A DNA stretch of 64,000 nucleotides, taken from positions 691,001-755,000 of the forward strand of contig NZ_CP038015.1 in the NCBI RefSeq assembly GCF_004367585.1, written 5' to 3'. Below, in pieces: positions 30,561-52,260 of the stretch; position 1 is the first letter of the stretch; each line of letters starts with the position of its first letter. The position numbers were made by a program, and so were the translations under genes. This DNA comes from Paenisporosarcina antarctica (lineage in GTDB: Bacteria; Bacillota; Bacilli; Bacillales_A; Planococcaceae). Below the pieces are notes generated by a model, which was not told the DNA's origin, ran no database searches, and saw nothing but the letters and a program-made list of their open reading frames with translations.

Positions 30561-30568
30561 ATGAAATA

Positions 30569-30900
30569 GAAAGTATATAAATTTAGTGAGCCATGAATCC
30601 AGTATTCCCGGTATTTTAAGGAGTAGGTTCTAGTAATACCGCTGATTTGCGCTCCAATCCCGTAGGAAAGATATTGGACGAACTGTCACTCGTCCAATAT
30701 CTTTGCGACGAGTTAACCACAGGAGCACATGGAACGAAGACTAAGAACGCCACGTCGTGTGGCAACGTCTTCGTGACCAACATCCTGTTGGCCCGAGGAG
30801 ACTGAAGCCAAGCCCGCGAAAAGCGTCCACCGTAGCGGAAATAAACGGGTTTCTATGGTTACCCATCTTAAAGGACCGGGCATTCTTTGTCCGGTTTTTC
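30569..30900 (+). repeat. Mosaic structured repeat, copy 1
   Basis: A non-coding element of 332 bases with a second copy at 51782-52260. The first 46 bases match copy 2 at 44 positions and the last 107 bases (30794-30900) match at 100 positions; the middle differs. The core holds a perfect 15-bp hairpin (30667-30681 with 30690-30704) and a compound hairpin CGAAGAC/GTCTTCG (30735-30741, 30767-30773) enclosing GCCAC/GTGGC. It ends in a terminator-like stem ACCGGGC/GTCCGGT followed by TTTTC. No open reading frame or terminal transposase was found. Confidence 0.85.
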
Positions 30901-30953
30901 TTATGCATATTTAATAAATTAAGTTAGTCATACTGCCACGTTTCATCAGAGAT

Positions 30954-31856
30954 TTATGAGATTTCTCTTCCCATAGCGACTTGTAATATGTCAAACCACT
31001 GATCTCTTGTTAAGGGTAAGTCAAGGGCTCGAATTGCAGACTCAATACGCTCAAAATTGCCTGATCCAACAATCGGCATAATGTTTGCAGGATGGATCAG
31101 TAACCATGCATATAGAACTTCATCAATTCCCTGAGCACCAATATCTCCAGCAATTAATTCTAACTTAGACCGCAAATGCTTAGCTCTTTCATCATTAGAA
31201 TTAAAAATTTCTCCTCCTGCCAGTGGAGACCATGCCATTGGAGAAATTTTTTCTTCCTGACAAAGATCAAGCGTTCCATCCTCAAAGTTCTCAAGATGGT
31301 AAGCAGAAAGCTCAATTTGATTTGTTATAAGCGGGAAATCTAAATAAGATTGTAGCAATTTAAACTGTGAACGTTTAAAGTTTGAAACACCAAAGTAACG
31401 GACTTTTCCTTCTTGTTTTAACTGAGTGAACGCCTCTGCTACTTGTGATGGGTCCATAAAAGGATCAGGACGGTGAATAAGCAAGACATCTATGTAATTT
31501 GTTTGAAAGTTTTTAAGCGACTGATTAACTGAAGATAAAATATGTTCTTTACTAGTATCATAGGATTTAATGCTGTGTCCTGGACGATTATGAGAAACAA
31601 GCTTAATGCCGCATTTTGTGACAATTTCCATTTGTTTACGAAGCGCTGGTTTCAATGCAAGGGCATTCCCGAATTTTTTCTCGCATGTATAATCCCCGTA
31701 AATATCTGCATGGTCAAAGGTAGTAATGCCAGCATCTAAGCAATCCTCAATTAGTTTAACGACTTCTTCATTTGACTTATTCCAGTCAGAAAGACGCCAT
31801 AGCCCATGAATGATTCGTGAAAAAGATAAATCCTTAGTAAGTTGTACTCGCTGCAT
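30954..31856 (-). CDS. Aldo/keto reductase (YdhF-like)
   Basis: A 300-residue NADPH-dependent aldo/keto reductase with the TIM-barrel motifs: FDHADIYGDYTCEKKFG, with the catalytic Asp and Tyr, TKCGIK with the Lys, LLIHRPDPFMD with the His, and FGVSNFKRSQ and PIVGSGNFERI for cofactor binding. The open frame extends 63 bases upstream to 31919, but AAGGAG lies 7 bases before the ATG at 31856 (MQRVQLTKDLSFSRIIHGLW), which is the normal family start. It is monocistronic on the minus strand, next to repeat copy 1. The substrate is unknown. Confidence 0.9.
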   Translation of the reverse strand: MQRVQLTKDLSFSRIIHGLWRLSDWNKSNEEVVKLIEDCLDAGITTFDHADIYGDYTCEKKFGNALALKPALRKQMEIVTKCGIKLVSHNRPGHSIKSYDTSKEHILSSVNQSLKNFQTNYIDVLLIHRPDPFMDPSQVAEAFTQLKQEGKVRYFGVSNFKRSQFKLLQSYLDFPLITNQIELSAYHLENFEDGTLDLCQEEKISPMAWSPLAGGEIFNSNDERAKHLRSKLELIAGDIGAQGIDEVLYAWLLIHPANIMPIVGSGNFERIESAIRALDLPLTRDQWFDILQVAMGREIS

Positions 31857-32150
31857 AATCATTCTCCTTTTTTTATAGTGTATAGAGAAGCAGTTTATTT
31901 TCATACTAAACTGCTTCATGTAAAAAAAAATTAACTCCTTAACATGTGTGCAAGAAATGAACTAATATTCGTTAACAAGCATAAATAAGGGGAAAGGGGC
32001 CCTCTTAATAAATTTTTATGTTAATTCTCATGATATAATAATTATGGTTTCAAACACTAACTTTAATAAATGTTCGCAATGAATTTAACATTATATAAGT
32101 TATACAGAAGAACTAATTTTGAAGAATTATAAGGAGAAGAATATTATTTT

Positions 32151-32954
32151 ATGAAGATTCAACTCAAAAGTTTTATCGAAGGTTCAAAGTTTACGCATTT
32201 TATTACAGCTATGATTCTCATTAATGCACTACTCGTAGGATTAGAAACCTATCCAAGCATTGCTAAGGAATATGAATTATGGTTTTTCATTATTGATATA
32301 GTTGTTTTAAGTATATTTACAGTGGAAATACTACTGAAACTCATTATTTACCGAGCAAGTTTTTTTAAAAATGGTTGGAATAATTTCGATTTCATTATAG
32401 TTGTGGGAAGTTTGTTGTTATACGGTTCATCATTTGTTAGTGTGCTTAGGATTTTCCGAGTGCTGCGGGTTTTACGAACGATCACTACCATACCGACACT
32501 TCGACGAATTGTAACTGCACTTTTCATGGCTATTCCTACAATCAGCAGTGTCATGGTGCTTATGTCGATTATCTTTTATGTATATGCAGTGATAGGGACG
32601 TTCTTATATGCAGAGGTTTCTCCGGAATTCTTCGGCGATTTGGGCTTGTCATTCATTTCGTTGTTTCAAATCTTCACATTAGAGTCCTGGGCAAGTGGTA
32701 TCTTCCGTCCGATTTTTGCGGAAATTCCGTGGTCATGGATCTATTTCATGACATTTATCGTGATAGCTACATTTATTATGATTAACTTGATTGTTGGAGA
32801 AATCGTTAACAATGCCCAAAAGATATCAGATGAAATTGAATCAGAAACAAAAGAAATTAAAGAAATTAAAGAAGATACGAGTGAAATTGAAGAACTCAAA
32901 AAAGAAGTTGGAGAGCTTAAAACCATGCTTCAAACATTAATTGATAGAAAATAA
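32151..32954 (+). CDS. NaChBac-type voltage-gated sodium channel
   Basis: A 267-residue single-repeat channel with six membrane segments. S4 at about 97-120 has arginines at third positions (Arg100, 103, 106, 109). The pore filter is TLESWAS at 176-182, identical to the Na+-selective filter of the Bacillus halodurans channel NaChBac (274 residues). S6 spans about 198-220, and the last 40 residues form an acidic coiled coil rich in KEIKEIKE and EELKKEVGELK that would hold the tetramer together. AAGGAG is 14 bases before the ATG, a longer than usual gap. It is monocistronic and followed by a strong terminator. Confidence 0.95.
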   Translation: MKIQLKSFIEGSKFTHFITAMILINALLVGLETYPSIAKEYELWFFIIDIVVLSIFTVEILLKLIIYRASFFKNGWNNFDFIIVVGSLLLYGSSFVSVLRIFRVLRVLRTITTIPTLRRIVTALFMAIPTISSVMVLMSIIFYVYAVIGTFLYAEVSPEFFGDLGLSFISLFQIFTLESWASGIFRPIFAEIPWSWIYFMTFIVIATFIMINLIVGEIVNNAQKISDEIESETKEIKEIKEDTSEIEELKKEVGELKTMLQTLIDRK

Positions 32955-32996
32955 AAAATACCGACACTCCTTTTAGGAGTGTCGGTATTTTTGGTT
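32954..32996 (+). terminator. Terminator after the sodium channel gene
   Basis: A perfect 17-bp stem AAAAATACCGACACTCC with a 5-base loop, ending in a T-run. It begins at the stop codon. Confidence 0.95.
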
Positions 32997-33089
32997 TGCT
33001 TTTGTTGACAACTTTTCACTTTGTAACGAATAAAGCGAACGTAAAAAAAGCCCATAGAGGGCAAGTGTATAATTTCGATTATCATTTAT

Positions 33090-33212
33090 TTAATTACTAG
33101 AGTTACGCCGGCGGATTTCAGTTTCTAACATACTAATAAATTCTGGACTTAGCTTTAATCCTTTTGCTTTAACATAGGACTCCATCAACAATGCAGTTGA
33201 TAGTTTACTCAT
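33090..33212 (-). CDS. sda: Sda, inhibitor of sporulation histidine kinase
   Basis: A 40-residue protein reading MSKLSTALLMESYVKAKGLK and then LSPEFISMLETEIRRRNSSN. It lines up with B. subtilis Sda, a helical hairpin that binds KinA and blocks the sporulation phosphorelay when replication is disturbed. The conserved LxxESYxKAxxLxLxxxFIxxxExEIxRR pattern is intact. CGGAGG lies 12 bases before the ATG. Five DnaA-box-like sites cluster upstream at 33339-33437, as expected for a gene activated by DnaA. It is the strongest small-gene call in the window. Confidence 0.93.
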   Translation of the reverse strand: MSKLSTALLMESYVKAKGLKLSPEFISMLETEIRRRNSSN

Positions 33213-33338
33213 GGGTTAATTCACCTCCGATTAATTAAAAAATGTGTTCTATTATTCAACAGTTATGACTATATTAATAAGTATCCTCGATGTGTACTTT
33301 AAATCTATCAGATAGTTTGATTCGGAACAACCGTTCGG

Positions 33339-33437
33339 TTATCCACAATATAGAGTGGATAACCTGTGATTAACTTGTGTATAAAACATAGAATTGTATA
33401 CAAAGGAGTCGGTATAATGTGAGTAACTTTATCCACA
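33339..33437 (-). promoter_or_regulatory. DnaA-box cluster upstream of sda
   Basis: TTATCCACA occurs twice without mismatch on the plus strand (33339-33347, 33429-33437). Between them lie minus-strand sites at 33354-33362 (TTATCCACT), 33365-33373 (TTAATCACA) and 33376-33384 (TTATACACA). Known biology: DnaA activates sda transcription in B. subtilis. Their use here is inferred. The promoter itself was not identified. Confidence 0.8.
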
Positions 33438-33575
33438 GATGATTAAAATTGAAAAATTTGTCGAAACATTTTATGGAAATATCCTTAAAACAGGCGTCAA
33501 TACCTATTAAATGAAAAGCGTATAGTATTTTAGAAATTTCATTCATTCATTATCTGTTTAACAATTCTTGTACCT

Positions 33576-34403
33576 TCACGACGTCTTGGTTCTTGCAGTT
33601 TGCTTTCTTGGAATTGGCTTTTTCTTTTTAGTTTTATCAAGTGAGGCTTGGAGTGCTGACATTAAATCCGTCACATTAGATGGTGCAGCGGGTTGTTTTT
33701 CGCTTGTTGTTACAGTATTATTCCCCGCTTTCTTCTCTTCAATTAATTCCATTAATGCTGTGCGATAGTCATCTGTATATTTCTCGGGTTCAAACGTTGT
33801 AGTTAATTGATCAACTAACATAAGAGCAGTATCGAGTTCTTTCTGAACAACTATTGGTTCACTTGGTATATTTGGTACGTCTCCGGCACTTCTAACCTCG
33901 TCTGGAAAATGGATTGTTTCCATTATTAACGTCTCTTTATATACACGAACAACTGCCAACTGTTCTTTTGAACGAATCATGATTTTGGCAACGCCTATTT
34001 TACCGGACTCCATTAATGCCTTTCTCAATAGCGAGTAGGCTTTAGCTCCGCCACTATCGGGTGCCATGAAATAACTACGTTCAAAGTAGATAGGATCAAT
34101 TTCCTCTAACTTTACAAAGTCGATAATTTCTACTGCTTTATCTTCATTTTCTTTTTTTAACTTCTCCAGTTCTTCTTCATCCAATACAACAAACTTGTTC
34201 TTGGAATACTCATAAGCTTTTACGATATCTTCACTTTGTACTTCTTTATTACAGCCTGAACAAACTTTTTGGTAATTAATTGGTGTATGACATTCTTTGT
34301 GTAGTTGACGTAACTTAATATCTTTATTTTCGGTCGCAGTGTGAAGCTTAACTGGAATATTTACAAGCCCAAAGCTAATACTTCCTTTCCAAACTGTGTG
34401 CAA
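33576..34403 (-). CDS. ku: Non-homologous end-joining protein Ku
   Basis: The bacterial Ku homodimer that rings DNA double-strand ends and recruits LigD. The 275-residue protein opens with MHTVWKGSISFGLVNIPVKLHTA, the defining N-terminal beta-barrel strand. It contains a CHTPINYQKVCSGC pair of cysteines near 38-51 and the core block PIYFERSYFMAPDSGGAKAYSLLRKA, then ends in a basic Lys/Arg-rich tail as in other Bacillus Ku proteins (YkoV). The start is TTG with a GGTGAAAG site. It is divergent from ligD, sharing a 114-base intergenic region. Confidence 0.96.
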   Translation of the reverse strand: MHTVWKGSISFGLVNIPVKLHTATENKDIKLRQLHKECHTPINYQKVCSGCNKEVQSEDIVKAYEYSKNKFVVLDEEELEKLKKENEDKAVEIIDFVKLEEIDPIYFERSYFMAPDSGGAKAYSLLRKALMESGKIGVAKIMIRSKEQLAVVRVYKETLIMETIHFPDEVRSAGDVPNIPSEPIVVQKELDTALMLVDQLTTTFEPEKYTDDYRTALMELIEEKKAGNNTVTTSEKQPAAPSNVTDLMSALQASLDKTKKKKPIPRKQTARTKTS

Positions 34404-34430
34404 TTGCTTTCACCTACTCTTTCTTTTCCT

Positions 34431-34461
34431 TACTATGCAATGTTTTGTTCCTATTTATGTA
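34431..34461 (-). promoter_or_regulatory. Possible sigma-G promoter of ku
   Basis: On the minus strand there is TACATA, an 18-base spacer and CATAGTA, compared with a sigma-G consensus of about TGAATA and CATACTA. The -10 end is 28 bases before the ku start. B. subtilis ykoV and ykoU are made in the forespore, which fits. Tentative. Confidence 0.35.
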
Positions 34462-34517
34462 TCAAGAGGGGAAAATAATCAAAAGCTAGAACAAAACAAC
34501 CGAAAGTAGGATAAAAA

Positions 34518-36368
34518 TTGAAGCCAATGCTTTTAACTGCCGCAACGGATATTCCCCTAGGAAAAGAATGGGTGTACGAAGCTAAATATGATGGTTTTCG
34601 TTGCATATTGGACTGGGAGGTAGACGCTACTCCCATTCTTAAGAGTAGAAATGGGAAAGTGCTTAATCAGATGTTTCCAGAGATTATTAGCTTTTGTCAT
34701 GACAATCAGAAAAAAATCAGTTCTTCTTTACCATTAACATTAGATGGAGAGTTAGTGTATTTAACGAATAATTTTCAAAGTACTTTTTCCATTGTTCAAT
34801 TAAGAGGTCGAATGCGGAATCAAGATGTAATCATGAAACATGTTAAAGAATTTCCGTGTCATTATATTGTGTTTGATCTTTTGAAAGTTAAAGGAGAAGT
34901 TCAAACAGATCTTTCAATCACAAAACGAAAACACAAACTACAAAAATTTTTTCAGAAGATAAAGCTTCCAATTTCAATAAGCTATGAAGACATAAATCGG
35001 ATTCAAGCAATAGATGTTTACCAAGACAATGAAGTGTTGTGGAAGCATATCAAGGTAAGCAATGGGGAAGGAATAGTCGCCAAGCAAAAAAACAGTAGTT
35101 GGATTAGTGATAAACGTACCGTCCAATGGTTAAAAATAAAAAACTGGCGATATGTCACTGTCATCTTAACTAAATATGATAAAAGCAATGGGTTTTTTCA
35201 TGGGGCTATTTATCATAAGAAGGCTCTTGTTGAGATTGTGACTTTCCGTCACGGTCTTAAAGAAGAAGAGTTAAATACATTAATAATGCTATTTCAATCG
35301 AGTGGAACTAAGTTAGCCGAAAAGGTTTGGGCACTAGAACCATCAATTTGCGTGGAGATTGCCTGTATTGATTTCGATGGAAAGTATTTAAGGGAACCAA
35401 GGTTTCATGCATTTAATTTTGACAAGGAGCCAAGCGATTGTCGGTGGCAGCAAATGCAACGACAGCTTTTTCCACTTCCAAAAATGATAACAATAACCCA
35501 CCCTGACAAGCCTATATGGCCGGTAAATAGTATACAAAAAGATGATTACTTACTGTACTTACAAAATATATCTCCCTATATTCTGCCTTTTTTACGTGAC
35601 CGCCTTCTTACGGTTATTCGTTTTCCACACGGTTCAATGGGTGAAAGTTTTTATCAAAAAAATAGCCCAGTTACTGTTCCTGATTTTGTGACAACTAAAC
35701 TGGTAGATGACATCCGTTATATTGTCTGTAATGACGTTGAATCTTTACTGTGGCTTGGAAACCAACTTGCGCTAGAGTTTCACATTCCTTTTCAAACGAT
35801 TAAAACGAATCAGCCAACTGAAATTGTTTTTGACCTTGACCCTCCTTCAGTTCATGAGTTTTCTTTAGCCATAGAGGCGGCATTGCGAATGAAAGCTATT
35901 TTTGACCAATTCGGAATTCAATCTTTTGTGAAAACCTCTGGTGGAAAAGGGATACAAGTTTATATTCCATTACCTATGAACACTTTTTCTTATGAAGACA
36001 CCCGGGTATTTACAAAGTTTGTTTGTAATTTCTTATGCGAACAGGAGCCGCAATGGTTTACCACAGAGCGACTTAAAAAGAATCGACATAATAAATTATA
36101 TTTGGACTATGTCCAACATGATGAAGGGAAAACGATAATAGCTCCCTATTCTCCAAGAGGTAACGAACAAGGGCTAATCGCGACTCCACTATACTGGAAT
36201 GAAGTATGTAATTCATTGAAACCAGATTTATTTTCCATTCCCTTAGTTATTGAAAGGTTAAAGAAACAAGGAAATCCATTTCGTAATTTCCAACAAGGAA
36301 TAGAAGAACAGAAGTTTGCAGATGTCCTACAACAACTAAAAGAACTAGTGAAAATCTCTCATAAATAA
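34518..36368 (+). CDS. ligD: LigD: ATP-dependent DNA ligase with polymerase/primase domain
   Basis: A 616-residue end-joining enzyme. Residues 1 to about 315 are the ATP-dependent ligase: motif I EAKYDGFR with the adenylated Lys23, then TLDGELVY, and motif V KIKNWR, followed by an OB-fold segment. Residues from about 330 form the LigD-type primase/polymerase: FPHGSMGESFYQKN, EIVFDLDPP with catalytic aspartates, and KTSGGKGIQVYIPLP. There is no phosphoesterase domain. Ligase-then-polymerase order and length match B. subtilis YkoU (about 611). The start is TTG with a weak site. It is divergent from ku. Confidence 0.96.
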   Translation: MKPMLLTAATDIPLGKEWVYEAKYDGFRCILDWEVDATPILKSRNGKVLNQMFPEIISFCHDNQKKISSSLPLTLDGELVYLTNNFQSTFSIVQLRGRMRNQDVIMKHVKEFPCHYIVFDLLKVKGEVQTDLSITKRKHKLQKFFQKIKLPISISYEDINRIQAIDVYQDNEVLWKHIKVSNGEGIVAKQKNSSWISDKRTVQWLKIKNWRYVTVILTKYDKSNGFFHGAIYHKKALVEIVTFRHGLKEEELNTLIMLFQSSGTKLAEKVWALEPSICVEIACIDFDGKYLREPRFHAFNFDKEPSDCRWQQMQRQLFPLPKMITITHPDKPIWPVNSIQKDDYLLYLQNISPYILPFLRDRLLTVIRFPHGSMGESFYQKNSPVTVPDFVTTKLVDDIRYIVCNDVESLLWLGNQLALEFHIPFQTIKTNQPTEIVFDLDPPSVHEFSLAIEAALRMKAIFDQFGIQSFVKTSGGKGIQVYIPLPMNTFSYEDTRVFTKFVCNFLCEQEPQWFTTERLKKNRHNKLYLDYVQHDEGKTIIAPYSPRGNEQGLIATPLYWNEVCNSLKPDLFSIPLVIERLKKQGNPFRNFQQGIEEQKFADVLQQLKELVKISHK

Positions 36369-36449
36369 TTTTAAAACGAATTTGGTCATTATCTTGAATC
36401 ACTATAGCTGGATTGAAGAAATAGGAAAGAAACAAAAAGGAGAATTGTT

Positions 36450-36674
36450 ATGCCAATCGAAAATCCGATGATAACAGGTGTGGGTTTACCCTCAGATCCA
36501 CAACAAGCGATTGTCGTATACAACTGCGACTATTGTAATGGAGAAATATATGAAGGAGATTCTTATGTAGTTTATGAAGGATTAACATTTTGCGGTAGCG
36601 ATCACTTAGGAGAACACTTGGTAAAACAAAGTCTTGCAGAAGAATTAACAGCACAAATTGAGAAGTTCCAGTAA
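36450..36674 (+). CDS. Small Cys-containing protein of unknown function
   Basis: A 74-residue acidic protein with YNCDYCNGEIYEGDSYVV in its centre, one CxxC pair, and a later FCGSDHLGEHL that could supply further Cys/His ligands. It resembles small zinc-ribbon-like proteins such as phage or spore YqaI-type proteins, but I cannot assign a family with confidence. It has a strong AAAAAGGAG site before the ATG, lies 81 bases after ligD on the same strand and may share its message. A hairpin terminator follows. Confidence 0.7.
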   Translation: MPIENPMITGVGLPSDPQQAIVVYNCDYCNGEIYEGDSYVVYEGLTFCGSDHLGEHLVKQSLAEELTAQIEKFQ

Positions 36675-36713
36675 TTTTAAACAATTTCTGCAAAAAAAGA
36701 TATTGCATTTAAT

Positions 36714-36757
36714 AAAGTAGTGCGGCCGGAAAGTGGTTGCACTACTATTTTTATTTG
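36714..36757 (+). terminator. Terminator after the small Cys protein
   Basis: The stem AGTAGTGC/GCACTACT, with a loop of about 15 bases, is followed by ATTTTTATTT. The remaining 380 bases before the amino-acid importer are AT-rich, and I saw no gene or riboswitch in them. Confidence 0.75.
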
Positions 36758-37138
36758 GTAGAAGGATTGAAAAGAAGTCCTTTAAAAAATCTATTAAAGA
36801 AGTAACCATTCTAGAGAAAGAGATTTATTCAAACTCTAAATCAACTGTAATAAAAGAGAGAAGAGTTCCTTGAAAAATTTAAAAGTATAAATATATATAG
36901 GTAATTTCATTCATTTCATAGTAGGTTTGTCTAGTTCTACAAACGAATTTGAGCACTTTAGTAGTTTAATACTTAGAATATTAAAACAAATCCCTTAATT
37001 ATTTGGTATTTTCGAACGGTCCACATCATAGAGTTAAGTAGACTATTTTTTATTAAATATCTATTAAAGGGGGATAGATTAAACTAAATAGTATTTTCAT
37101 TAGAAAGTTACTATAAAAATAGGGGGCTGGATTAAAAT

Positions 37139-38185
37139 ATGAAAAAATATTTATTCGCAATTTTAAGTATGTTACTAGTTTTTTCGGTTATCTTAGCTGG
37201 ATGTTCAGAAAAATCGGATGAGGAAATTAACACGAAGTCACTGCTAGAAGTTATCAAGAAGCGAGGGAAATTAGTTGGTGGTGTTAACGCTACGATACCT
37301 GGTTTCGGTTATGTAGCTTCAGATGGAAGTTATGAAGGAATGGATATTGATATTACGAGAGCAGTTGCAGCGGCTATCTTTGGGGATCCAACTGCTGTTG
37401 AATTCAGACCATTATCCGCAGAGGAACGTTTTATTGCTGTTCAAACGGGTGAAGTGGATGTATTAGCAAGAAATACCACTCATACAACTTCTCGAGACGC
37501 GTCAGTAGGTCTTGCATTTGCACCAGTAACTTTTTATGACGGACAAGGCATGATGGTACGTAAAGATAGCGGAATTGAAAGTTTAGCAGACTTAGAAGGA
37601 TCTCGGATTGCTGTTGAATCAGGAACTACAACAGAACTTAATTTGGCGGATCAAATGCGTAAGATAGGAGTCAGTTATGAGCCTGTAGTATTTGATAATC
37701 AGGATGCCGCAATATCTGCATATGAACAAGGCAGTGTGGATGCATTCACAACAGATCGTTCTGGACTTGTTTCTCGACGATCTACATTATCCAAACCGGA
37801 TGATCATTTTATCTTAACGGAGGTATTGTCTAAAGAACCTCTTGCGCCATCTGTGAAAGATGGTGATTCTAAATTCGTTGCTGTTGTATCATGGACTGTA
37901 TACGCGTTAATTCAAGCTGAAGAGTATGGTATTACTCAGGGGAATATTGAAAGTTTCATGGATAGTGATGATCCTGAAATCCGTCGATTCCTAGGTGTTG
38001 AAGGGGATTTGGGCGAGCAACTTGGATTAGAGAAGGACTTTGTTGTTCAAGTAATTAAAGCTGTAGGTAACTACGGTGAGCTTTATGATCGTCATCTTGG
38101 TCCAGAAACCGTGTTTAATTTAGAGCGTGGTCCAAATGAACTTTGGACAAATGGTGGCTTAATGTATTCACCACCTTTCCGATAA
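37139..38185 (+). CDS. Amino-acid ABC transporter binding lipoprotein (AapJ/BztA-like)
   Basis: A 348-residue lipoprotein; the signal peptide ends VILAGC with Cys22. The mature protein belongs to the family 3 polar amino-acid-binding proteins of the long AapJ/BztA type: GKLVGGVNATIPGFGYVASDG, MDIDITRAVAAAIFGD, VDVLARNTTHTTSRD and AVGNYGELYDRHLG, blocks that mark this subgroup and exceed the usual 260 residues. AapJ-type systems take up a broad range of L-amino acids. GGGGG precedes the ATG. It heads a four-gene importer operon. AapJ/Q/M/P systems are better known from Proteobacteria than from Bacilli. Confidence 0.9.
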   Translation: MKKYLFAILSMLLVFSVILAGCSEKSDEEINTKSLLEVIKKRGKLVGGVNATIPGFGYVASDGSYEGMDIDITRAVAAAIFGDPTAVEFRPLSAEERFIAVQTGEVDVLARNTTHTTSRDASVGLAFAPVTFYDGQGMMVRKDSGIESLADLEGSRIAVESGTTTELNLADQMRKIGVSYEPVVFDNQDAAISAYEQGSVDAFTTDRSGLVSRRSTLSKPDDHFILTEVLSKEPLAPSVKDGDSKFVAVVSWTVYALIQAEEYGITQGNIESFMDSDDPEIRRFLGVEGDLGEQLGLEKDFVVQVIKAVGNYGELYDRHLGPETVFNLERGPNELWTNGGLMYSPPFR

Positions 38186-38290
38186 GGTACCAATTATAGC
38201 TAAATTGAAAATAGGTCTGTATACCTTCTAAGCTAGGGACAGACCTATTATCGTTTATAGGGATAGTAAAACTACTGTGAGGTGAGATAC

Positions 38291-39469: not shown

Positions 39470-39474
39470 GCAAA

Positions 39475-42856: not shown

Positions 42857-42909
42857 AAATTATACATAAAAAGTAATTCCATGCTAAAAGCAATTAAAAT
42901 AATAAAAGC

Positions 42910-42940
42910 CTATAGGTGAACCTTACCGGTTGACCTATAG
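42910..42940 (+). terminator. Hairpin after the cation exchanger gene
   Basis: The stem CTATAGGT...ACCTATAG encloses AACC/GGTT. The tail ACAGTTTTAAA has only a short T-run, so it could serve either strand as a modest terminator. Confidence 0.65.
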
Positions 42941-42992
42941 ACAGTTTTAAAAATTGCTAATTAATTATTAAATTTTTAGAATTAGAAACAAA

Positions 42993-43235: not shown

Positions 43236-43653
43236 TTTACAATCAGTCCTCCTTTCATGTATTAAACATCTTTAGTATTCGGTCTACCTGATGAATTATA
43301 CTGAACATTATTTTCCTTAATCATTTAAAAAATTCCACTAAATTGCATATGTAATACTGTTGCTAAAATAAAATTTAATAATCCAGGTATATGTAAGCGT
43401 TTTATAAAAATTTACAATCTTTTTATTAGATTATATTTAACCTATTAAAACAACAATGAAAGCGCTATCTTAAATAATTATTATATAAAATCTCTAATCT
43501 TTTAAGAAATAAGTAGTTGATTCTGAATATAAATGTTGTATGATTAACTTCAACAACTAAATTTCGGATTATTCAGAATTTAATTCGTGTTCAAAAAAAC
43601 GCTTAATACTCTTACTGAAGTTTGAGAGTTGTTAAAGAGAGGAGTGGTTATGT

Positions 43654-44562: not shown

Positions 44563-44593
44563 TTGTATAAGTAAAATAAAAGTATAGTAAATA

Positions 44594-44632
44594 AATCCAG
44601 CAGGCTAAGCTAGTTGCCTGGGTTTTTTTGTG
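44594..44632 (+). terminator. Terminator after ilvE
   Basis: The stem CAGGC/GCCTG, with outer ATCC/GGT pairs around a bulge, is followed by seven T residues. Confidence 0.8.
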
Positions 44633-44684
44633 TAAAAAAATAGGTAACAAAATTTTAATAACAAGAAAAAAGGGGATAGGGAAA

Positions 44685-45611
44685 TTGAATATAATTGATT
44701 TGCATTGCGATGTTTTATTAAAGCTCAATAACTCACGAGGAAAAATGAAATTTAAAGACGCAAATGAACTCGATACGAATATGGAACGACTGAAAAAAGG
44801 GGAAGTAAAAGTTCAAGCTTTTGCAATTTTTGTGTGTCCTGATATTAAAACAGAACAAAAATTTCAAGTAGCACTTGATCAAATCCATTATTTTTACACA
44901 GATGTTCTCGAAAATAACCCGGATATGAAATTAATAAAAGAGTGGTCAGATATTGAACGATTAAAAGAGAACGAGATAGGGGCATTGCTAACGCTTGAAG
45001 GAGTAGATGTAATTGGCAATGACTTGCATAAACTCTCCATATTATATCAATTAGGTGTACGTTCTGTTGGCCTGACATGGAATAATACAAATTTGGCAGC
45101 TGATGGGGCAGGAGAAAAGCGTGGCGCTGGTCTAACATCGTTCGGTGAAGAAATCGTTGAGTTTAACAATGACCACAAAATACTTACAGATGTATCGCAT
45201 TTATGTGAACAAGCTTTTTGGGATGTTATTGATAAAGCAAAATTTCCAGTTGCCAGTCATTCAAACTCTAGGTTTATCATGAATCATGTTAGAAACTTAA
45301 CTGACGAGCAAGCAAAAGCTATGTTTGAAAAAGATGCAATGGTCCATGTGGTGTATTGCCCTGAGTTTATCAAGGAAAGGAAGAATGTAGAAATTGGTGA
45401 TTTAATTGAACATATCGATCATTTCTGCTCCTTAGGTGGGGAAAATAATATTGGTCTCGGTTCTGATTTTGACGGAATTTCAGCAAAAATAGTCAATTTG
45501 GAAAATGCCTCAATGCAACAAAATCTATTAAATGAACTTTTAAAACATTACTCGGAAGATCAAGTGAAAGGTTTTGCATTTAAAAACTTTGTACGCCATC
45601 TTCCTAAATAA
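44685..45611 (+). CDS. M19-family membrane dipeptidase-type metallopeptidase
   Basis: A 308-residue dinuclear-zinc dipeptidase fold. The first metal motif is DLHCD at the N-terminus, followed by LLTLEGVDVIG with a bridging Glu, SVGLTWNN, LTDVSHLCEQAFWDV, ASHSNSR with the next His pair, and GLGSDFDGI near the end. The open frame starts at 44628, inside the ilvE terminator, but AAAGGGG and TAGGGAAA lie just before a TTG at 44685, which gives the usual MNIIDLHCD start. There is no signal peptide, so it is probably cytoplasmic. The natural dipeptide substrate is unknown. The 3' end overlaps the convergent gene by 8 bases. Confidence 0.9.
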   Translation: MNIIDLHCDVLLKLNNSRGKMKFKDANELDTNMERLKKGEVKVQAFAIFVCPDIKTEQKFQVALDQIHYFYTDVLENNPDMKLIKEWSDIERLKENEIGALLTLEGVDVIGNDLHKLSILYQLGVRSVGLTWNNTNLAADGAGEKRGAGLTSFGEEIVEFNNDHKILTDVSHLCEQAFWDVIDKAKFPVASHSNSRFIMNHVRNLTDEQAKAMFEKDAMVHVVYCPEFIKERKNVEIGDLIEHIDHFCSLGGENNIGLGSDFDGISAKIVNLENASMQQNLLNELLKHYSEDQVKGFAFKNFVRHLPK

Positions 45612-45969
45612 AAGAAAAGATTGAAACGGTCAAACTGATAACACAAAATAGAATGCCTATTTCAAAGAAGTTTTTACGTGATGGGAAATTCTTACGATAA
45701 ATGACTGTGTGATTCGGTCTCTTTTCACTTTCACGTATAACTTGTTCTTTTTTGCTCATACGATATAAAAAATGTTTGGAACTTTTAATGAATGCTGTAA
45801 AAAAATCGCCTTCAATTAAAATCATGATTGAACAAATGATTAGTAGTAATAGTCCAACTAAAAAAAGTGAATCTATCCATATACTGATGCTCCAAGATTT
45901 ATAAAGTATGAAGGGCACCATCAATGAAACTATTATTGACGTAAAAAGTAATTTGTTTCTAGATATCAT
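45604..45969 (-). CDS. DUF3899-like small membrane protein
   Basis: A 121-residue protein with three hydrophobic segments (about 8-25, 31-52, 101-121) separated by a basic cytoplasmic stretch SSKHFLYRMSKKEQVIRESEKRP. Layout and the phrase LFLVGLLLLIICSIMILIEGDFF recall the DUF3899 family of Bacilli. Function is unknown. It converges on the dipeptidase gene, overlapping it by 8 bases, so the two may interfere in transcription. The upstream region carries GAAAGGAATG before the ATG. Confidence 0.7.
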   Translation of the reverse strand: MISRNKLLFTSIIVSLMVPFILYKSWSISIWIDSLFLVGLLLLIICSIMILIEGDFFTAFIKSSKHFLYRMSKKEQVIRESEKRPNHTVIYRKNFPSRKNFFEIGILFCVISLTVSIFSFI

Positions 45970-46109
45970 AAATTGACATTCCTTTCATCTTATCTTCTAT
46001 TGAAAGATTATCACATTATTATATTGTTTGAAAATTAAAATATCTTATTGCCAAATAGTAAAATAGCATTTATGATGTAGAAAATAAGAAATTTAAAGGG
46101 GATAAAAAT

Positions 46110-47750
46110 ATGAGAAGAAAGTTAAAAAATTCAGCATTCATCCTTTGTATGGTATTCGCACTAATATTATCTGGATGTAACTTTAGTTCTTCAGAAAAAA
46201 CGGATGAAAAGACTGAAGGCAATAAAGATGCTAGCCAAGTCCTAAATATTACAGAGCCTGCTGATGTTCCTACTCTCGATTCTACAAAAGCGCACGATGG
46301 TATAGCATTTACAGTATTAAACAACGTAAATGAAGGATTATATCGCCAAGATGAAAATAACTTACCGATTAAAGCTTTAGCTACTGAACATGTAGAAAGC
46401 GATGATAAAATCACCCACACATTTACATTACGTGACTCAAACTGGAGTAACGGAGATCCTGTGACAGCACAAGATTTTGAATTCGCGTGGAAACGAGTAA
46501 TGAAGGAAAATAGCGCGTATGGCTTCATGTTCGTAACGGCAGGTATTAAAAATGCCGAATCAATTTTGAATGAAGAAAAAGATTCAGATGAACTTGGTAT
46601 TAAAGCAATTGACGAAAAAACACTTGAAGTAACGCTAGAAGGACCAAACCCACTATTCCAAACGTTATTGACATTCCCGACTTTCTTACCACAAAACCAA
46701 AAATTTGTTGAAGAACAAGGTGATCAATATGCCCTTGAATATGACAATATACTATTTAACGGACCATATAAACTTGTTGAATGGACGCATGAGCAAGGTT
46801 GGAAATATGAAAAGAACGAAAAGTACTGGGATGCAGATGCAGTAAAGTTGGATAAAATCAACGTTTTTGTTGTAAAAGACCCATCAACTGGAACGAATTT
46901 GTATGAGACAGAAAAAGTAGATCGTGTCGAGTTAAGTTCTGCCTTAGTCGATCAATATAAAGATGATGAAAACTTTCAAACTATGAAAGAATCAGGTCTA
47001 GTCTTCTTGCGTTTCAATCATAATCATCCTGTATTAGGAAACAAAGACATTCGTAGAGCGATTAATATGGCAATAGATAAAAAAAGTTTAACGGATGTTA
47101 TTTTAAAAGATGGGTCTACACCTTTAAATGGAGTTGTTCCAGGTGGTTTCTATAACTCACCTGACAATAAAGATTTCCGTGAGATAAACGGAGACTTTAA
47201 TACAGGAACAATTGAAGAAGCCCAAAAACTATGGGAGCAAGGCTTAAAAGAAACTGGTCAAAAAGATTTAACGGTATCCATTAACATCGCAGATTCAGAT
47301 GATCATAAAAAAGTAGCTGAATACATTCAAGCGCAGCTAGAAGATAATCTACCTGGATTCAAATTGGATATTAAGGCAGTTCCTTTTGCCCAACGTCTTG
47401 TTATTGAAAAAGCAATTGAATTTGATTTATCTCTATCTTCATGGGGACCAGACTACAGTGACCCGATGACATATCTGGATATGTGGTTGAAAGATGGATC
47501 TGCTAACCGTATGGATTATTACAATCCGAAGTTGGATGCATTAGTCACAGAAGCTAGAAATGAAACTGATCTTGCAAAACGCTATGTAATGCTCTTAAAT
47601 CTTGAAAAAATCTTATTGGAAGAGGATGCAGCAATTGCACCACTTTACCAAGAGGGTGAATCCATCTTAATTAGAAAGAAAATTAAAGATGTTCTAGTAC
47701 ACCCAACTGGTGCTGAGTTTAGTTTCAAGTGGGCATCCATCGAAGAATAA
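46110..47750 (+). CDS. oppA: Oligopeptide ABC transporter binding lipoprotein
   Basis: A 546-residue family 5 solute-binding lipoprotein. The signal peptide ends LILSGC with Cys23. The mature part has the Opp/Dpp signature region around KALATEHVESDDKITHTFTLRDSNWSNGDPVTAQDFEFAWKR, here cited in parts, which contains the family WSNGDPVTAxDFxxxW pattern near 108-129. It binds peptides outside the cell for the downstream permease. GGGG precedes the ATG. A strong terminator at 47771-47816 separates it from the permease genes, which would keep the binding protein in excess. Confidence 0.93.
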   Translation: MRRKLKNSAFILCMVFALILSGCNFSSSEKTDEKTEGNKDASQVLNITEPADVPTLDSTKAHDGIAFTVLNNVNEGLYRQDENNLPIKALATEHVESDDKITHTFTLRDSNWSNGDPVTAQDFEFAWKRVMKENSAYGFMFVTAGIKNAESILNEEKDSDELGIKAIDEKTLEVTLEGPNPLFQTLLTFPTFLPQNQKFVEEQGDQYALEYDNILFNGPYKLVEWTHEQGWKYEKNEKYWDADAVKLDKINVFVVKDPSTGTNLYETEKVDRVELSSALVDQYKDDENFQTMKESGLVFLRFNHNHPVLGNKDIRRAINMAIDKKSLTDVILKDGSTPLNGVVPGGFYNSPDNKDFREINGDFNTGTIEEAQKLWEQGLKETGQKDLTVSINIADSDDHKKVAEYIQAQLEDNLPGFKLDIKAVPFAQRLVIEKAIEFDLSLSSWGPDYSDPMTYLDMWLKDGSANRMDYYNPKLDALVTEARNETDLAKRYVMLLNLEKILLEEDAAIAPLYQEGESILIRKKIKDVLVHPTGAEFSFKWASIEE

Positions 47751-47770
47751 TTTAGAGGTTATACAGCTAT

Positions 47771-47817
47771 AAGTACGAGGGTGTAGCCGAATTGTGGCAC
47801 CCTCGTACTTTTTTTAT
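47771..47817 (+). terminator. Internal terminator between oppA and oppB
   Basis: A 12-bp perfect stem AGTACGAGGGTG with a 14-base loop, followed by seven T residues. It lies within the operon, so some readthrough must be assumed for oppBCD, unless an unseen promoter exists in the 30 bases before oppB. Confidence 0.92.
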
Positions 47818-47848
47818 TAAACTTTTTTCTTTCAGAAGGGGTGTTCGT

Positions 47849-48778
47849 ATGAAGCAATACCTTATCCAGCGAATTGGCTATATGTTACTTACTCTTTTTG
47901 TAGTCGTTACGATAACTTTTTTTCTAATGCAACTTCTCCCAGGGACACCTTTTACAAATCCTGAAAAGTTAACAGAACAACAAATGCTCATATTAAATGC
48001 AAAATATGGACTTGATCAACCCGTCGGAATTCAATACATACGGTACCTTGGGAATTTGGTACAAGGTGATTTAGGTTACTCATTTCAAAATGCAGGTAGA
48101 ACTGTCTCAAGTATAATTAGCGACCGTATAGGTCCTTCTGCTTTTATCGGACTACAAGCACTTATCTTTGGTGCAATAATCGGCTTAGTGCTCGGAATCG
48201 TATCTGCATTAAAACATAATTCGATTTTTGACTATGGTTCTGTAACGTTAGCTGTTTTAGGTATGTCAATCCCATCTTTCGTTTTTGCCGCACTGCTTCA
48301 ATATTATGTCGGTGTAAAGCTTGAATGGTTACCTGTAGCTCTATGGGAAGGATATTCCAGTACCATATTACCATCATTTGCATTATCAGTTACGGTTATT
48401 GCAACTGTTGCTAGGTTTATTAGAAGTGAGATGTTGGAAGTACTCGGTCAAGATTATGTAGTAACTGCGAGAGCAAAAGGGGTAACTGAAAAGCAAGTAA
48501 TCGTAAAACATGTTATTCGAAATGCACTCATTCCAGTTGTGACTATGTTAGGACCACTTGCCGTGGCAATAATGACAGGGACGTTAGTTATTGAAAAAAT
48601 ATTTGCTGTACCGGGTCTCGGTGAACAGTTTACGTTGTCTATTCTGGTTCTAGACTATAGCGTAATTATGGGAATTTCGATATTTTATAGTGCATTATTT
48701 ATATTTGTCGTTTTTTTAGTCGATATTATTTATGGATTTTTAGATCCCCGAATTAATTATAAGGGGGAATCAGCATGA
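47849..48778 (+). CDS. oppB: Peptide ABC transporter permease (OppB/DppB)
   Basis: A 309-residue permease with about six membrane helices, starting MKQYLIQRIGYMLLTLFVVVT, the characteristic OppB N-terminus. QLLPGTPF follows, and then the EAA loop VTARAKGVTEKQVIVKHVIRNALIPV near 208-233. An in-frame start at 47792 exists, but it lies inside the upstream terminator; AAGGGGTG is placed correctly for the ATG at 47849. Its stop overlaps the next start (ATGA), coupling oppB with oppC. Confidence 0.92.
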   Translation: MKQYLIQRIGYMLLTLFVVVTITFFLMQLLPGTPFTNPEKLTEQQMLILNAKYGLDQPVGIQYIRYLGNLVQGDLGYSFQNAGRTVSSIISDRIGPSAFIGLQALIFGAIIGLVLGIVSALKHNSIFDYGSVTLAVLGMSIPSFVFAALLQYYVGVKLEWLPVALWEGYSSTILPSFALSVTVIATVARFIRSEMLEVLGQDYVVTARAKGVTEKQVIVKHVIRNALIPVVTMLGPLAVAIMTGTLVIEKIFAVPGLGEQFTLSILVLDYSVIMGISIFYSALFIFVVFLVDIIYGFLDPRINYKGESA

Positions 48779-49833
48779 AAAATTCAGATAAAGAAGTCCG
48801 TATAGAAAATGATAATCAAATAAAAGAAGAATATAATTCAGTTGAAATCACTGCGGATTTGTTTGTAAAGGCACCACTAGATCAAAAAAAGAGTGAGGAA
48901 ATTGGATCACCATCTGTTTCTTTCTGGAAAGAGGCTTTTCAGAGACTAACAAAAAATAAAGGATCAATGATTTCACTAGTTTTACTTCTGATATTAATAG
49001 CCACAGCTATTATCGGACCTAGTCTGAACGACTATACTTACCGAAGTCAAAATATTGAACATTCCAACTTGCCACCTAAAGTACAAGGTTTAGAGTGGTT
49101 AGGTTTAAACGGAAGCGATTCAAAGGGTATCGACCAATATGAAAAGCGAGAAATTCAAGTGAATTACTGGTTCGGAACAGATGAATTCGGTCGCGATTTA
49201 TGGACTCGAGTTTGGAAAGGGACACAGATTTCTCTTTTCATCGCTTTAGTTGCAGCAGTGCTCGATTTAATCATCGGTGTAATTTACGGAGGGATTTCAT
49301 CATTTTATGGTGGGCGTGTAGATAACATTATGCAACGAATTATAGAAGTACTTATGGGTATACCTAATTTAATTGTTATCATCCTCTTTATCCTTATATT
49401 AGAACCCGGTATAAGGTCAATTATTTTAGCGATGATTATTACAGGTTGGGTTGGAATGGCACGAGTTGTTCGAGGACAAATTTTGCAATTGAAAGGTCAA
49501 GAGTTTGTGTTAGCTTCGAAGACGCTCGGAGCATCTAACTCACGACTTATATGGAAACACTTATTGCCAAATGTTATGGGTCCAATAATCGTTACAGTTA
49601 TGTTCACAATTCCGACGGCAATTTTCTTTGAAGCATTCTTAAGTTTTATCGGTTTAGGTTTACAGGCACCACTGGCATCTCTAGGTGTGTTAATTGAAGA
49701 TGGTTATAAGTCGATGCGTTTCTTTTCATATAAGTTAATTTACCCAGCGGTGATTATTAGTACAATTATGATTTGTTTTAATTTACTTGGGGATGGATTA
49801 CGAGATGCATTAGATCCGAAAATGAGAAAATAG
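48775..49833 (+). CDS. oppC: Peptide ABC transporter permease (OppC/DppC)
   Basis: A 352-residue permease, about 50 residues longer than many relatives because of a soluble acidic N-terminus (residues 1-45). Landmarks are SFWKEAFQRLTKNKGSMISL, then FGTDEFGRDLWTRVWKGTQISL near 134-155, and the EAA loop VLASKTLGASNSRLIWKHLLPNVMGP. The FGTDxxGRDxxxR block defines the OppC/DppC family. The start overlaps the oppB stop by four bases. It pairs with OppB in the membrane. Confidence 0.93.
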   Translation: MKNSDKEVRIENDNQIKEEYNSVEITADLFVKAPLDQKKSEEIGSPSVSFWKEAFQRLTKNKGSMISLVLLLILIATAIIGPSLNDYTYRSQNIEHSNLPPKVQGLEWLGLNGSDSKGIDQYEKREIQVNYWFGTDEFGRDLWTRVWKGTQISLFIALVAAVLDLIIGVIYGGISSFYGGRVDNIMQRIIEVLMGIPNLIVIILFILILEPGIRSIILAMIITGWVGMARVVRGQILQLKGQEFVLASKTLGASNSRLIWKHLLPNVMGPIIVTVMFTIPTAIFFEAFLSFIGLGLQAPLASLGVLIEDGYKSMRFFSYKLIYPAVIISTIMICFNLLGDGLRDALDPKMRK

Positions 49834-49846
49834 GGGAGGGTCCAAA

Positions 49847-50872
49847 ATGGAGAGAAATATACTGAAAGTTGTTAACATGCATGTGTCATTCAAGACCCAA
49901 ACCGGAAGAATTACAGCTGTAAGAGGAGTTAGTTTTGAATTGAACAAAGGTGAAACACTCGCAATAGTTGGTGAATCTGGGTCGGGAAAATCAGTCACAG
50001 CGAAATCGATTATGCGTCTGTTACCGAAACATAATTCGGAAATTACAAAAGGCGATATTTTATATGAAGATAGAAGTTTATTAAAACTTTCGATAAAAAA
50101 AATGCAGGAAATACGTGGGTCTGAAATTTCAATGGTTTTCCAAGACCCCATGACATCTTTAAATCCGACGATGAAAGTTGGAAAACAAATTATGGAAGGT
50201 TTACAAAAACATCAAAACTTATCTAAAACGGTTGCTCACAAACGTGCACTGGAAATGATGAAGTTAGTGGGTATTCCAAGTGCTGAAGCAAGGTTAGAAG
50301 ATTACCCACACCAGTTTTCAGGAGGAATGCGACAACGTGTAGTCATTGCCATGGCACTTGCTTGTAATCCAAAAGTTTTAATTGCAGATGAACCTACAAC
50401 TGCACTTGATGTAACGATTCAAGCACAGATTTTGGATTTAATGAAAGACTTGCAACAAAAAATGGATACAGCCATTATATTAATAACTCACGATTTAGGA
50501 GTAGTAGCGAATATGGCGGACCGTGTAGCTGTTATGTACGCTGGGAAAATTGTAGAGCAAGGAACGCTTGATGAAATTTTCTATAACCCGCAACATCCTT
50601 ATACATTAGGACTATTACAGTCGATGCCAAAGTTAAATGAAGATCGGTCCAAACCTTTATTGCCTATCTTAGGCTCACCTCCTGATTTAGCGACTCTTGG
50701 TGAAGGTTGTGCTTTTGCCGCAAGATGTCCGCATACGATGAAGGTGTGCCATAGCTTCACACCACAAGATACGGTAGTAGAAGATAAACATACGGTAGCA
50801 TGTTGGTTACAAGATGTTAGGACACCTAAGGAGTATCTTCCTGAAACAGTAGTAGCAGTTAATTCTCAATAA
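49847..50872 (+). CDS. oppD: Peptide ABC transporter ATPase (OppD/DppD)
   Basis: A 341-residue ATPase. Walker A is GESGSGKSV, the Q-loop is [13 protein letters not shown], the signature is [15 protein letters not shown] and Walker B is [12 protein letters not shown]. The last 90 residues form the oligopeptide-transporter extension, with cysteines in [15 protein letters not shown], which bind an iron-sulfur cluster in characterised Dpp/Opp ATPases. GGGGAGG precedes the ATG. It ends the operon; no OppF/DppF partner is encoded next to it, although Opp systems normally need two different ATPases. Confidence 0.94.
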
Positions 50873-50898
50873 AGAACATGTGAATTTCTCTTATGGTT

Positions 50899-50928
50899 AA
50901 AGCTTGTCACTCGTGACAAGCTTTTTTA
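50899..50928 (+). terminator. Terminator of the peptide importer operon
   Basis: A perfect 12-bp stem AAAGCTTGTCAC around TC, followed by TTTTTT. Confidence 0.94.
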
Positions 50929-51057
50929 ACCTTTAAATTTAGTAAAAGTAAAAAGAATTCTTTAATTTGTATAATCTTACCTCGATTACAAGATTTAGAA
51001 AGATTTGAAACGCTATCATTGTGACGAATATTAAAAATTCTTTAAAATAAGTATTTT

Positions 51058-51088
51058 TAGTCAACTAAAAAATAATATAAGTTGACGT
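51058..51088 (+). promoter_or_regulatory. Probable BirA operator of bioY
   Basis: GTCAAC, 15 bases, GTTGAC: an inverted repeat with BirA-type spacing. Its right half overlaps the -35 box of the bioY promoter. B. subtilis BirA controls the related yhfUTS operon (yhfU is bioY), so biotin-dependent repression is expected. Inferred from sequence and synteny. Confidence 0.65.
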
Positions 51089-51110
51089 AAATAGGGAATC
51101 GCATTAGTAT
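51082..51110 (+). promoter_or_regulatory. Probable sigma-A promoter of bioY
   Basis: TTGACG, a 17-base spacer, TAGTAT, about 42 bases before the bioY start; the -35 sits in the BirA-like site. Confidence 0.6.
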
Positions 51111-51151
51111 ATAAATGTACAGGAATCATTTTATAAAGAGGGGTAAGTTTA

Positions 51152-51727
51152 ATGAAATTAAGAGATATGATGCTAGCCTCAATGTTTGCAGCAGTAATAG
51201 CTATTCTAGGCTTTCTACCTGCATTGCAAATTCCTTTTTCACCAGTACCAATCACGGCTCAAACGCTCGGTGTCATGCTCACAGGCGCGGTATTAGGAGC
51301 AAAGCGTGGTGCACTAAGTCTGGCTATTTTTCTATTACTTATTGTTATTGGTGCACCAGTATTGCCGGGGGGAAGAACAGGAATTACCGTATTTATGGGA
51401 CCATCAGGTGGTTTCTTGCTAAGCTGGCCAATCGCCGCTTTTGCAATTGGATGGTTTGTTGATCATACTAAAGGGAAAATAAGTTTTTGGAAACTTATGC
51501 TATACACATTTATCGGTGGTATTGTGATTGTGTATTTAATTGGTGGTGCCTATATGGCATTTGTTACTCAAATACCATTAGCAAAAGCATACATCTCGTG
51601 TTTAATATTCATCCCAGGGGATGTTATAAAATGTATATTAGCTTCTCTTTTTGCTTCTCAATTACACAAGAATTCTGTGATGATGCGCATGGCATCAACT
51701 CAACGGAAAATAAGAACAAGCAGCTAA
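51152..51727 (+). CDS. bioY: Biotin transporter substrate-binding subunit BioY
   Basis: A 191-residue integral membrane S-component that captures biotin, alone or with an ECF ATPase module. Family blocks are PFSPVPITAQTLGVMLTGAVLGAKRG near 28-53 (given in part as PVPITAQTLGVMLTG), GAPVLPGGRTG, FMGPSGGFLLSW near 90, and FIPGDVIKCILAS. Six membrane segments fit the fold. AAAGAGGGGTAAG precedes the ATG. It lies downstream of a BirA-like operator and upstream of acyl-CoA ligase and thiolase genes, matching the B. subtilis yhfU-yhfT-yhfS order. A small terminator and a repeat element separate it from those genes here. Confidence 0.95.
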   Translation: MKLRDMMLASMFAAVIAILGFLPALQIPFSPVPITAQTLGVMLTGAVLGAKRGALSLAIFLLLIVIGAPVLPGGRTGITVFMGPSGGFLLSWPIAAFAIGWFVDHTKGKISFWKLMLYTFIGGIVIVYLIGGAYMAFVTQIPLAKAYISCLIFIPGDVIKCILASLFASQLHKNSVMMRMASTQRKIRTSS

Positions 51728-51743
51728 TCAATACTTAAATCTA

Positions 51744-51775
51744 AAAAACAGGCTACTGTAGCCTCTTTTTTTAAA
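51744..51775 (+). terminator. Short terminator after bioY
   Basis: The stem AGGCTA/TAGCCT with a 3-base loop, followed by CTTTTTTT. It would partly uncouple bioY from the downstream acyl-CoA genes. Confidence 0.75.
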
Positions 51776-51781
51776 AAATAA

Positions 51782-52260
51782 GAAAGCATATAAATTTAGT
51801 GAGCCTTGAATCCAGTATTCCCGGTATACCAAATTGCCTTTGGTCCTATTCTTTGTGACGAAGCTAGCGCAGCGATGCAGAGGATTGTAGAACAGTGGTT
51901 TGCATGATGAACACTGAAATTCTGGTATTTTGAGCAAGTATTTCTCTTTTTAGAAATAGGGTAGAAGAAGTATTCCTTCTAGCTGTGTATCGCTCAATAT
52001 TTCAAATAATTGTGACTAAAAATAGAATTTGTTGCAAAGATGGATAAATTCAAACTAGTTGATTGAATCGCAGGTGGCGACTTCTGCGGGAAAAGCTTGA
52101 GCTGAAGGCCCCGCAGGAAAGATGCTGCCCAAAAGCCAGTGTCTTTGCAGTGACGAGGAGACTGAAGCCAAGCACGTGAAAAGCGTCCACTGTAGCGGAA
52201 ATAAACGGGTTTCTATGGTTACCCTTCTTAAAGGACCGGGCGTACTTTGCCCGGTTTTTC
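51782..52260 (+). repeat. Mosaic structured repeat, copy 2
   Basis: A 479-base counterpart of the element at 30569-30900, in the same orientation. The left 46 bases (51782-51827) and right 107 bases (52154-52260) match copy 1; CCCGYAGGAAAGAT in the core is shared too. Specific to this copy are CTGCGGG/CCCGCAG (52084-52090, 52110-52116) and a 10-bp helix at 52118-52127 with 52137-52146 that occupies the place of the 15-bp hairpin in copy 1. The end is ACCGGGC/GCCCGGT then TTTTTC. No coding frame was found. Confidence 0.85.

Follow-up and report, generated by a model that had tools for sequence, protein, structure and literature searches.

IS91-family transposons typically insert beside tetranucleotides, among them GTTC and CTTG. 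In the available portion of PMC9330008, IS91 enzymes are described as acting by rolling-circle movement without direct repeats, with capture of flanking DNA if the second cleavage falls past the element end. Two other systems offer parallels: group IIC introns, which an excerpt of PMC4424553 describes as inserting at intrinsic terminator motifs, and Helitrons, which in the accessible part of PMC4289320 have a hairpin shortly before a CTRR-like 3′ end, make no target duplication and capture neighbouring sequence. Here we describe two gene-less elements, copy 1 and copy 2, in a 64,000-nucleotide stretch of the Paenisporosarcina antarctica genome (contig NZ_CP038015.1, positions 691,001 to 755,000; hereafter the window, whose coordinates are used throughout). 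Both are very probably non-autonomous derivatives of an IS91-family rolling-circle transposon, resembling miniature inverted-repeat transposable elements, because they have both transposon ends without the gene, have dispersed copies, occupy terminator-flanked positions and belong to a family for which an empty site exists.

The autonomous relatives of these elements share their transposase family with IS91, and the absence of target-site duplication given for IS91 in that portion of PMC9330008 was matched at one empty site. The window elements and their kin differ from IS91 in that they insert directly behind intrinsic terminators, in that the right end is itself terminator-like, and in that the host genome and a congeneric one hold many gene-less copies while no intact transposase was found in either. 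The intrinsic terminator as target is a likeness to group IIC introns, and the features listed above are a likeness to Helitrons; the latter, unlike the window elements, are eukaryotic, have a RepHel protein with a helicase and insert at AT, and their 3′ hairpin is not termed a transcription terminator in the accessible part of PMC4289320.

Element ends and the IS91-family transposase

An initial annotation of the window had reported two repeats with matching ends and a variable core. The pair stood up on recount, with 44 of 46 bases identical at the left and 100 of 107 at the right, and cores that differ. The two copies are real, but their limits had been set too narrowly; the true ends lie further out, so that copy 1 spans 30561–30903 (343 bp) and copy 2 spans 51773–52263 (491 bp), both on the plus strand. 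The likeness of the two is not chance, since searches of the host genome (G000; other G-numbers denote collection genomes and L-numbers extracted loci) at E ≤ 0.001 gave 85 matches to copy 1 and 64 to copy 2, selves included. When the host copies were aligned, a common left end (AGAAAGTATATAAATTTAGTG plus a small hairpin) and a common right end (CTTAAAGGACCGGGC..GCCCGGTTTTTCTTA) emerged between unrelated flanks. No reading frame of at least 90 aa occurs within copy 1 or copy 2; as the window copies are without a transposase of their own, we call them non-autonomous derivatives and not insertion sequences.

Transposase genes between such ends were found in a survey of 261 genomes from 19 genera of the host's bacterial family (Caryophanaceae). 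The left end matched in at least 17 genomes and at least 6 of the 19 genera, a lower bound with three candidates scored per genome. Five loci have a left end that continues into a transposase frame, one being ended by the contig end and one (in G025) decayed, and in G001, G020 and G022 the same kind of left end stands directly 5′ of an uninterrupted transposase of 414–415 aa. A box and hairpin like those of copy 1 lie 5′ of the transposase start in L228 and L229. The G001 (414 aa) and G020 (415 aa) proteins exceeded the cut-offs for Pfam Y2_Tnp (7.5e-41) and Zn_Tnp_IS91 (5.9e-21) and for the NCBIfam IS91 transposase NF033538 (2e-91), and HVH and YIGRY motifs are present in the transposases of G001, G020 and G126; the autonomous relatives thus have the Y2/HUH transposase with N-terminal zinc-binding domain that defines IS91. 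Searching the same genomes with the transposase protein (E ≤ 1e-10) gave 33 matches in 15 genomes and 9 of the 19 genera.

The element limits come from G126, which is of another genus and has four transposase-bearing copies; three are identical and the fourth differs from them at 15 of 1557 bases. These run from ACAAGATAAGAAAG to GGTTTTTCTTA, and mapping them onto the window gave the limits stated above. Their right end, a hairpin GGACCGGGC..GCCCGG followed by TTTTTCTTA, agrees with those of the window copies at 31 and 32 of 37 bases, so that both ends of each window copy match the ends of an autonomous element. G126 also has a transposase-less left end (L210), as would be expected of an enzyme that works in trans. 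Right ends finish in GTTC in a second subgroup of transposase-bearing elements and in CTTA/CGTA in subgroup 1 and the window copies, and left flanks are mostly T-tracts.

In the host, the only transposase trace at E ≤ 1e-10 is a 35-aa relic (L250, G000:C1:3001873-3001977), and the protein search gave no transposase match in G004, a congeneric genome with many left ends; the transposase has apparently since been lost from the host. The L250 relic continues into a piece of the left-end hairpin, and a copy of the hairpin repeat described below lies nearby. A 33-base piece of the left end has exact matches in 8 stretches of a named collection that may omit records of the window's own genome, all of them in Paenisporosarcina sp. 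TG20, the strain that G004 may represent.

Insertion sites

Each window copy begins directly behind an intrinsic terminator on the plus strand. That of copy 1 (30511–30560; score 14.75, fold −22.9 kcal/mol) belongs with the gene at 29308–30468, which we take to be an iron-type alcohol dehydrogenase; the counterpart gene in the congeneric genome G007 has a different terminator and no element. That of copy 2 (51747–51772; score 11.5, fold −8.5 kcal/mol) follows a presumably bioY-like gene at 51152–51727.

This arrangement was scored across five sets of left ends, a terminator being a hairpin plus a T-run starting no more than 30 bases from the left-end box, with cut-offs of ≥10 and ≥8. The 24 host ends comprised 22 of 27 search matches plus two found by eye (543912 and 2314592); the five matches dropped were of 17–27 bases (E 0.03–0.6). 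Twenty loci from other genomes supplied 12 gene-less and 5 transposase-bearing ends, leaving out L217 (inside a coding sequence), L218 (hairpin only) and L222 (contig end). Of the 33 transposase matches, 20 were scored; the other 13 were fragments, copies without a locus, or in G174. IS91 subgroup 2 (33–35% identical transposases; G190, G217 and G234) has a different left end and right ends ending in GTTC, those of G190 and G217 finishing ..GCGCTTTAGCGCTTTTGTTC; the copies scored were L241, L252, L259 and L263 in G217, L242, L253, L260, L264 and L265 in G190, and L243 and L254 in G234.

At a score of ≥10, a terminator stood upstream of 19/24 host ends and 9/11 subgroup 2 ends, and of 4/9 subgroup 1 ends, 4/8 TG20 ends and 3/12 gene-less ends of other genera; the controls gave 129/3000 random intergenic positions of the window and 59/2000 positions in 11 loci of other genera. 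At ≥8 the counts were 21/24, 9/11, 6/9, 4/8 and 6/12, respectively, with 222/3000 and 112/2000 in the controls. The host and subgroup 2 show the pattern strongly, the remaining three sets more weakly. Several low scorers lie, by eye, behind the apparent decayed right end of another element (e.g., three of the four G126 copies), and some of the low scores may be due to decay of terminators and right ends. In the host, the left ends at 370524 and 543912 follow another element's right end. In searches of open-licence literature, none of the titles and abstract openings listed gave an account of IS91 insertion at terminators, or of the hairpin repeat.

An empty site was found for the host element at G000:C1:3656686-3656943. 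The corresponding G007 site reads ..GCTCTTTTATAATTCATT.., the T-tract CTCTTTT directly joining ATAATTCATT; in the host, the element lies between CTCTTTT and ATAATTCATT. G004 is also empty at the right junction of this element, its sequence further upstream being different. No target duplication is detectable at this single site, although one of one or two T could be masked by the T-tract.

The nested hairpin repeat and other structured modules

The variable cores are probably explained in part by a hairpin repeat nested in the elements (GATTG..GAAATC, ~124 positions). Longer elements of ~600–800 bases have, in order, the left end, an inverted hairpin repeat, an AT-rich spacer, a forward hairpin repeat and the right end; a covariance model found inverted and forward units together in L192, L194 and L200, and also in L195, where one unit is partial. 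Copy 2 retains the forward unit only. In copy 1 the inverted unit is reduced to its first 12 bases and the forward unit to its 3′ half, and two inserted modules are present. The mosaic appearance would thus follow from nesting and from different internal deletions of, and inserts in, a common longer form.

Copy 1 begins with its left end at 30561–30643 (plus strand, like all features of both copies except where stated), which contains a AGAAAGTATATAA box and the small hairpin GCCATGAATCCAGTATTCCCGGT. The first 12 bases of the inverted hairpin repeat (GATTTGCGCTCC) follow on the minus strand at 30644–30655, the remainder being missing. Next come an inserted module with a perfect 15-bp helix AAAGAT..ATCTTT (30656–30724) and a module of the Rfam family Bacillaceae-1 RNA (RF01690; 30725–30791; cmscan 77.1 bits, cut-off 35). 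These are followed by the 3′ half of the nested hairpin repeat (GAGGAGACTGAAGCC..GGAAAT; 30795–30842) and the right end with its own terminator GGACCGGGC..GTCCGGTTTTTCTTA (30843–30903). In copy 2, the left end (51773–51827) is followed by a module fragment and AT-rich spacer (51828–52060), a complete nested hairpin repeat with the tip insert AAAGATGCTG..TCTTT (52061–52203; cmsearch 77.7 bits, E 1.1e-21) and the right end with its own terminator GGACCGGGCGTACTTTGCCCGGTTTTTCGTA (52204–52263). On this map, the 107 bases shared at the right comprise the right end together with the 3′ half of the hairpin repeat.

The RNA features first described for the pair are present: the core motif lies at 30659 in copy 1 (CCCGTAGGAAAGAT) and 52110 in copy 2 (CCCGCAGGAAAGAT), the AAAGAT helix has 15 perfect pairs in copy 1 and 10 pairs, two of them G-T, in copy 2 (paired by eye), and the 3′ end stems of both fold (−15.9 and −17.7 kcal/mol). 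The AAAGAT pairing is real, but the main structure is a larger hairpin, in whose tip this helix sits as an insert. Bases ~97–172 of the copy 1 query, which cover the AAAGAT module, match many other places in the host genome; 14 such matches were inspected with their flanks, and the 13 that were readable lay outside elements with the left and right ends.

Compensatory changes, cited in the initial annotation for a smaller helix, were found across copies of the larger hairpin, a passenger in the elements. Of the 78 near-full units, the 36 that lack large tip inserts were aligned, and 15 of 25 predicted pairs showed compensatory double changes. In a separate count of 21 pairs, for which one alignment gap had been moved by one column, 92.8% of cells paired against a mean of 80.2% and a maximum of 82.5% in 500 shuffles, and at most 45.1% paired when partners were slid; 16 of the 21 pairs were doubly changed. 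Among 13 held-out copies, 11 of them from genomes or records giving none to the model, 13 of 25 pairs were changed on both sides (0–2 when slid); 99.4% of cells paired, a percentage biased upward because these copies are the top model matches and were aligned to the model. None of 500 shuffles reached the held-out value in four of five measures; the fifth, the number of pair types, was not raised (349/500 shuffles). Mismatches on the modelled strand were G-T in 27 and A-C in 5 of 732 cells, an excess which suggests that this strand folds, whether as RNA or as single-stranded DNA.

The repeat is widespread, which bears out the mention in the initial annotation of like sequences scattered in Bacillaceae genomes. 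In a sample of 100 genomes taken at the rank of order, the covariance model matched 94 at E ≤ 1e-6, and 14 of 14 genera; the genomes listed in this sample all belong to the same family as the host, and many have at least 35 matches, the number scored per genome. It also occurs on 13 plasmid records from Priestia, Peribacillus, Paenibacillus, Bacillus and Planococcus, genera which show that it extends beyond the host family. One record (NZ_CP025132.1, L296), 1566 bases long, linear and labelled as a Planococcus plasmid, has one hairpin repeat and one metallo-hydrolase gene and may be an assembly fragment. A Y1 (IS200/RAYT-like) transposase is not supported as mover of the hairpin, as G005 and G006 have 24 and 26 repeat matches and no Y1_Tnp match. 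A loop-to-downstream pseudoknot was dropped for one nested helix because copies with GCCGG or GTGGG covary, by eye, with the distal strand, and only in some cases with the local CCCCGC as well.

Bacillaceae-1 RNA, graded as certainly RNA and probably not cis-regulatory in the part of its original table given in PMC2864571, has a full match in copy 1, but as a 67-base module only; copy 2 has no RF01690 match in a permissive Rfam scan. Of 20 RF01690 matches in the host (L061–L080), 13 run directly into the 3′ half of the hairpin repeat under a strict pattern, three more do so by eye (L069, L078 and L079) and four stand alone, so that in this genome the 'small RNA' is mostly a module in the tip of the hairpin repeat. 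At gathering score, Rfam matches in the window and 17 further loci were to Bacillaceae-1 and riboswitches only, so that no Rfam family represents the element itself there, and nothing but the nested Bacillaceae-1 covers the repeat. Besides Bacillaceae-1 in copy 1, permissive scans of both copies gave weak matches to unrelated families.

These results bear on the proposal, made in the initial annotation, that the two elements are terminator-ended noncoding RNA genes under selection, duplicated members of one family whose cores have diverged. The covarying hairpin, the Bacillaceae-1 RNA inside copy 1, the terminator-like element end and the G-T excess, as expected of a folding strand, all speak for it. 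Part of the proposal holds, in that the hairpin repeat family does have a selected structure and may act as RNA. As an account of the window elements, which are better read as transposon derivatives than as RNA gene copies, it is unlikely: the hairpin is complete in copy 2 only and a remnant in copy 1 (30745–30843; cmsearch 20.3 bits), the common ends are those of a transposon whose transposase is known, an empty site exists, and a structured repeat could also be selected as single-stranded DNA. Still less likely are intergenic repeats homogenised around terminators by gene conversion and never inserted as units; the mosaic modules and the long near-identical stretches between copies (window 51882–52259 is 99% identical over 378 bases to G000:C1:934846-935223) would fit, but the outer boundaries are the same in unrelated flanks and one site is empty. 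Hardly credible is a retroelement, for instance a degenerate group IIC intron, although such introns are known to target terminators, since they are RNA-based whereas the gene between such ends here is an IS91 DNA transposase and no group II intron matched at gathering score in the window and 17 further loci.

Four S-adenosylmethionine riboswitch aptamers (12929–13039 and 13190–13301 in close tandem on the same strand, 11191–11300, and 22140–22256) and two thiamine pyrophosphate riboswitches ~1 kb apart (55883–56021 and 56924–57025) also lie in the window. Divergent frames at 33576–36368 presumably encode Ku and a LigD-type ATP-dependent ligase, a bacterial end-joining pair.

Proposed mechanism and significance

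Several points weigh against derivation of the window elements from an IS91-family transposon, or limit its scope. The empty site is one locus, with room for a hidden duplication of a T or two, and no usable orthologous empty site was found for copy 1, whose flanking genes are ~39 kb apart on the matching G007 contig, or for copy 2, whose flanks gave no DNA match at E ≤ 1e-20 other than repeats in eight congeneric genomes. Three of the five sets reach the stricter terminator cut-off in half or fewer of their members (4/8, 4/9 and 3/12), and selection against insertions elsewhere could partly produce the terminator enrichment. A few elements keep an apparent decayed transposase start, and the window copies do not. 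Present mobility in the host is unlikely because no intact transposase was found there, and transposition itself was not observed.

Derivation from an IS91-family transposon nonetheless allows a mechanism to be outlined. A Y2/HUH transposase, supplied in trans, would nick one element end, replication would displace one strand as far as the other end, and the displaced strand would be inserted in the T-tract immediately 3′ of a terminator. As the right end (hairpin, T-run and CTT) resembles the target (hairpin and T-run), the enzyme may read its own end and the target alike, which would explain elements directly behind another element's right end. The common longer form would have run from left end through inverted hairpin repeat, AT-rich spacer and forward hairpin repeat to right end, with modules (Bacillaceae-1 and the AAAGAT helix) inserted near the hairpin tips before different internal deletions. 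We tentatively extend this to a clade of IS91-type HUH transposases that might recognise terminators as targets by shape, their own 3′ end being a terminator (hairpin, T-run, and CTT or GTTC), so that elements could move safely behind genes, stack in tandem and shuttle a covarying hairpin repeat as cargo.

A covariance model is now available for a hairpin repeat that is present in many copies in most of the genomes sampled and that lacks an Rfam match of its own in the scanned loci, and the Rfam small RNA Bacillaceae-1 is seen to travel in this host mainly as a module inside that repeat. With these elements, a DNA transposon would join the mobile elements for which intrinsic terminators serve as safe harbours, group IIC introns being the known case. 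The elements also suggest a testable rule for target choice by IS91-type transposons, namely that the target resembles the element's own end.

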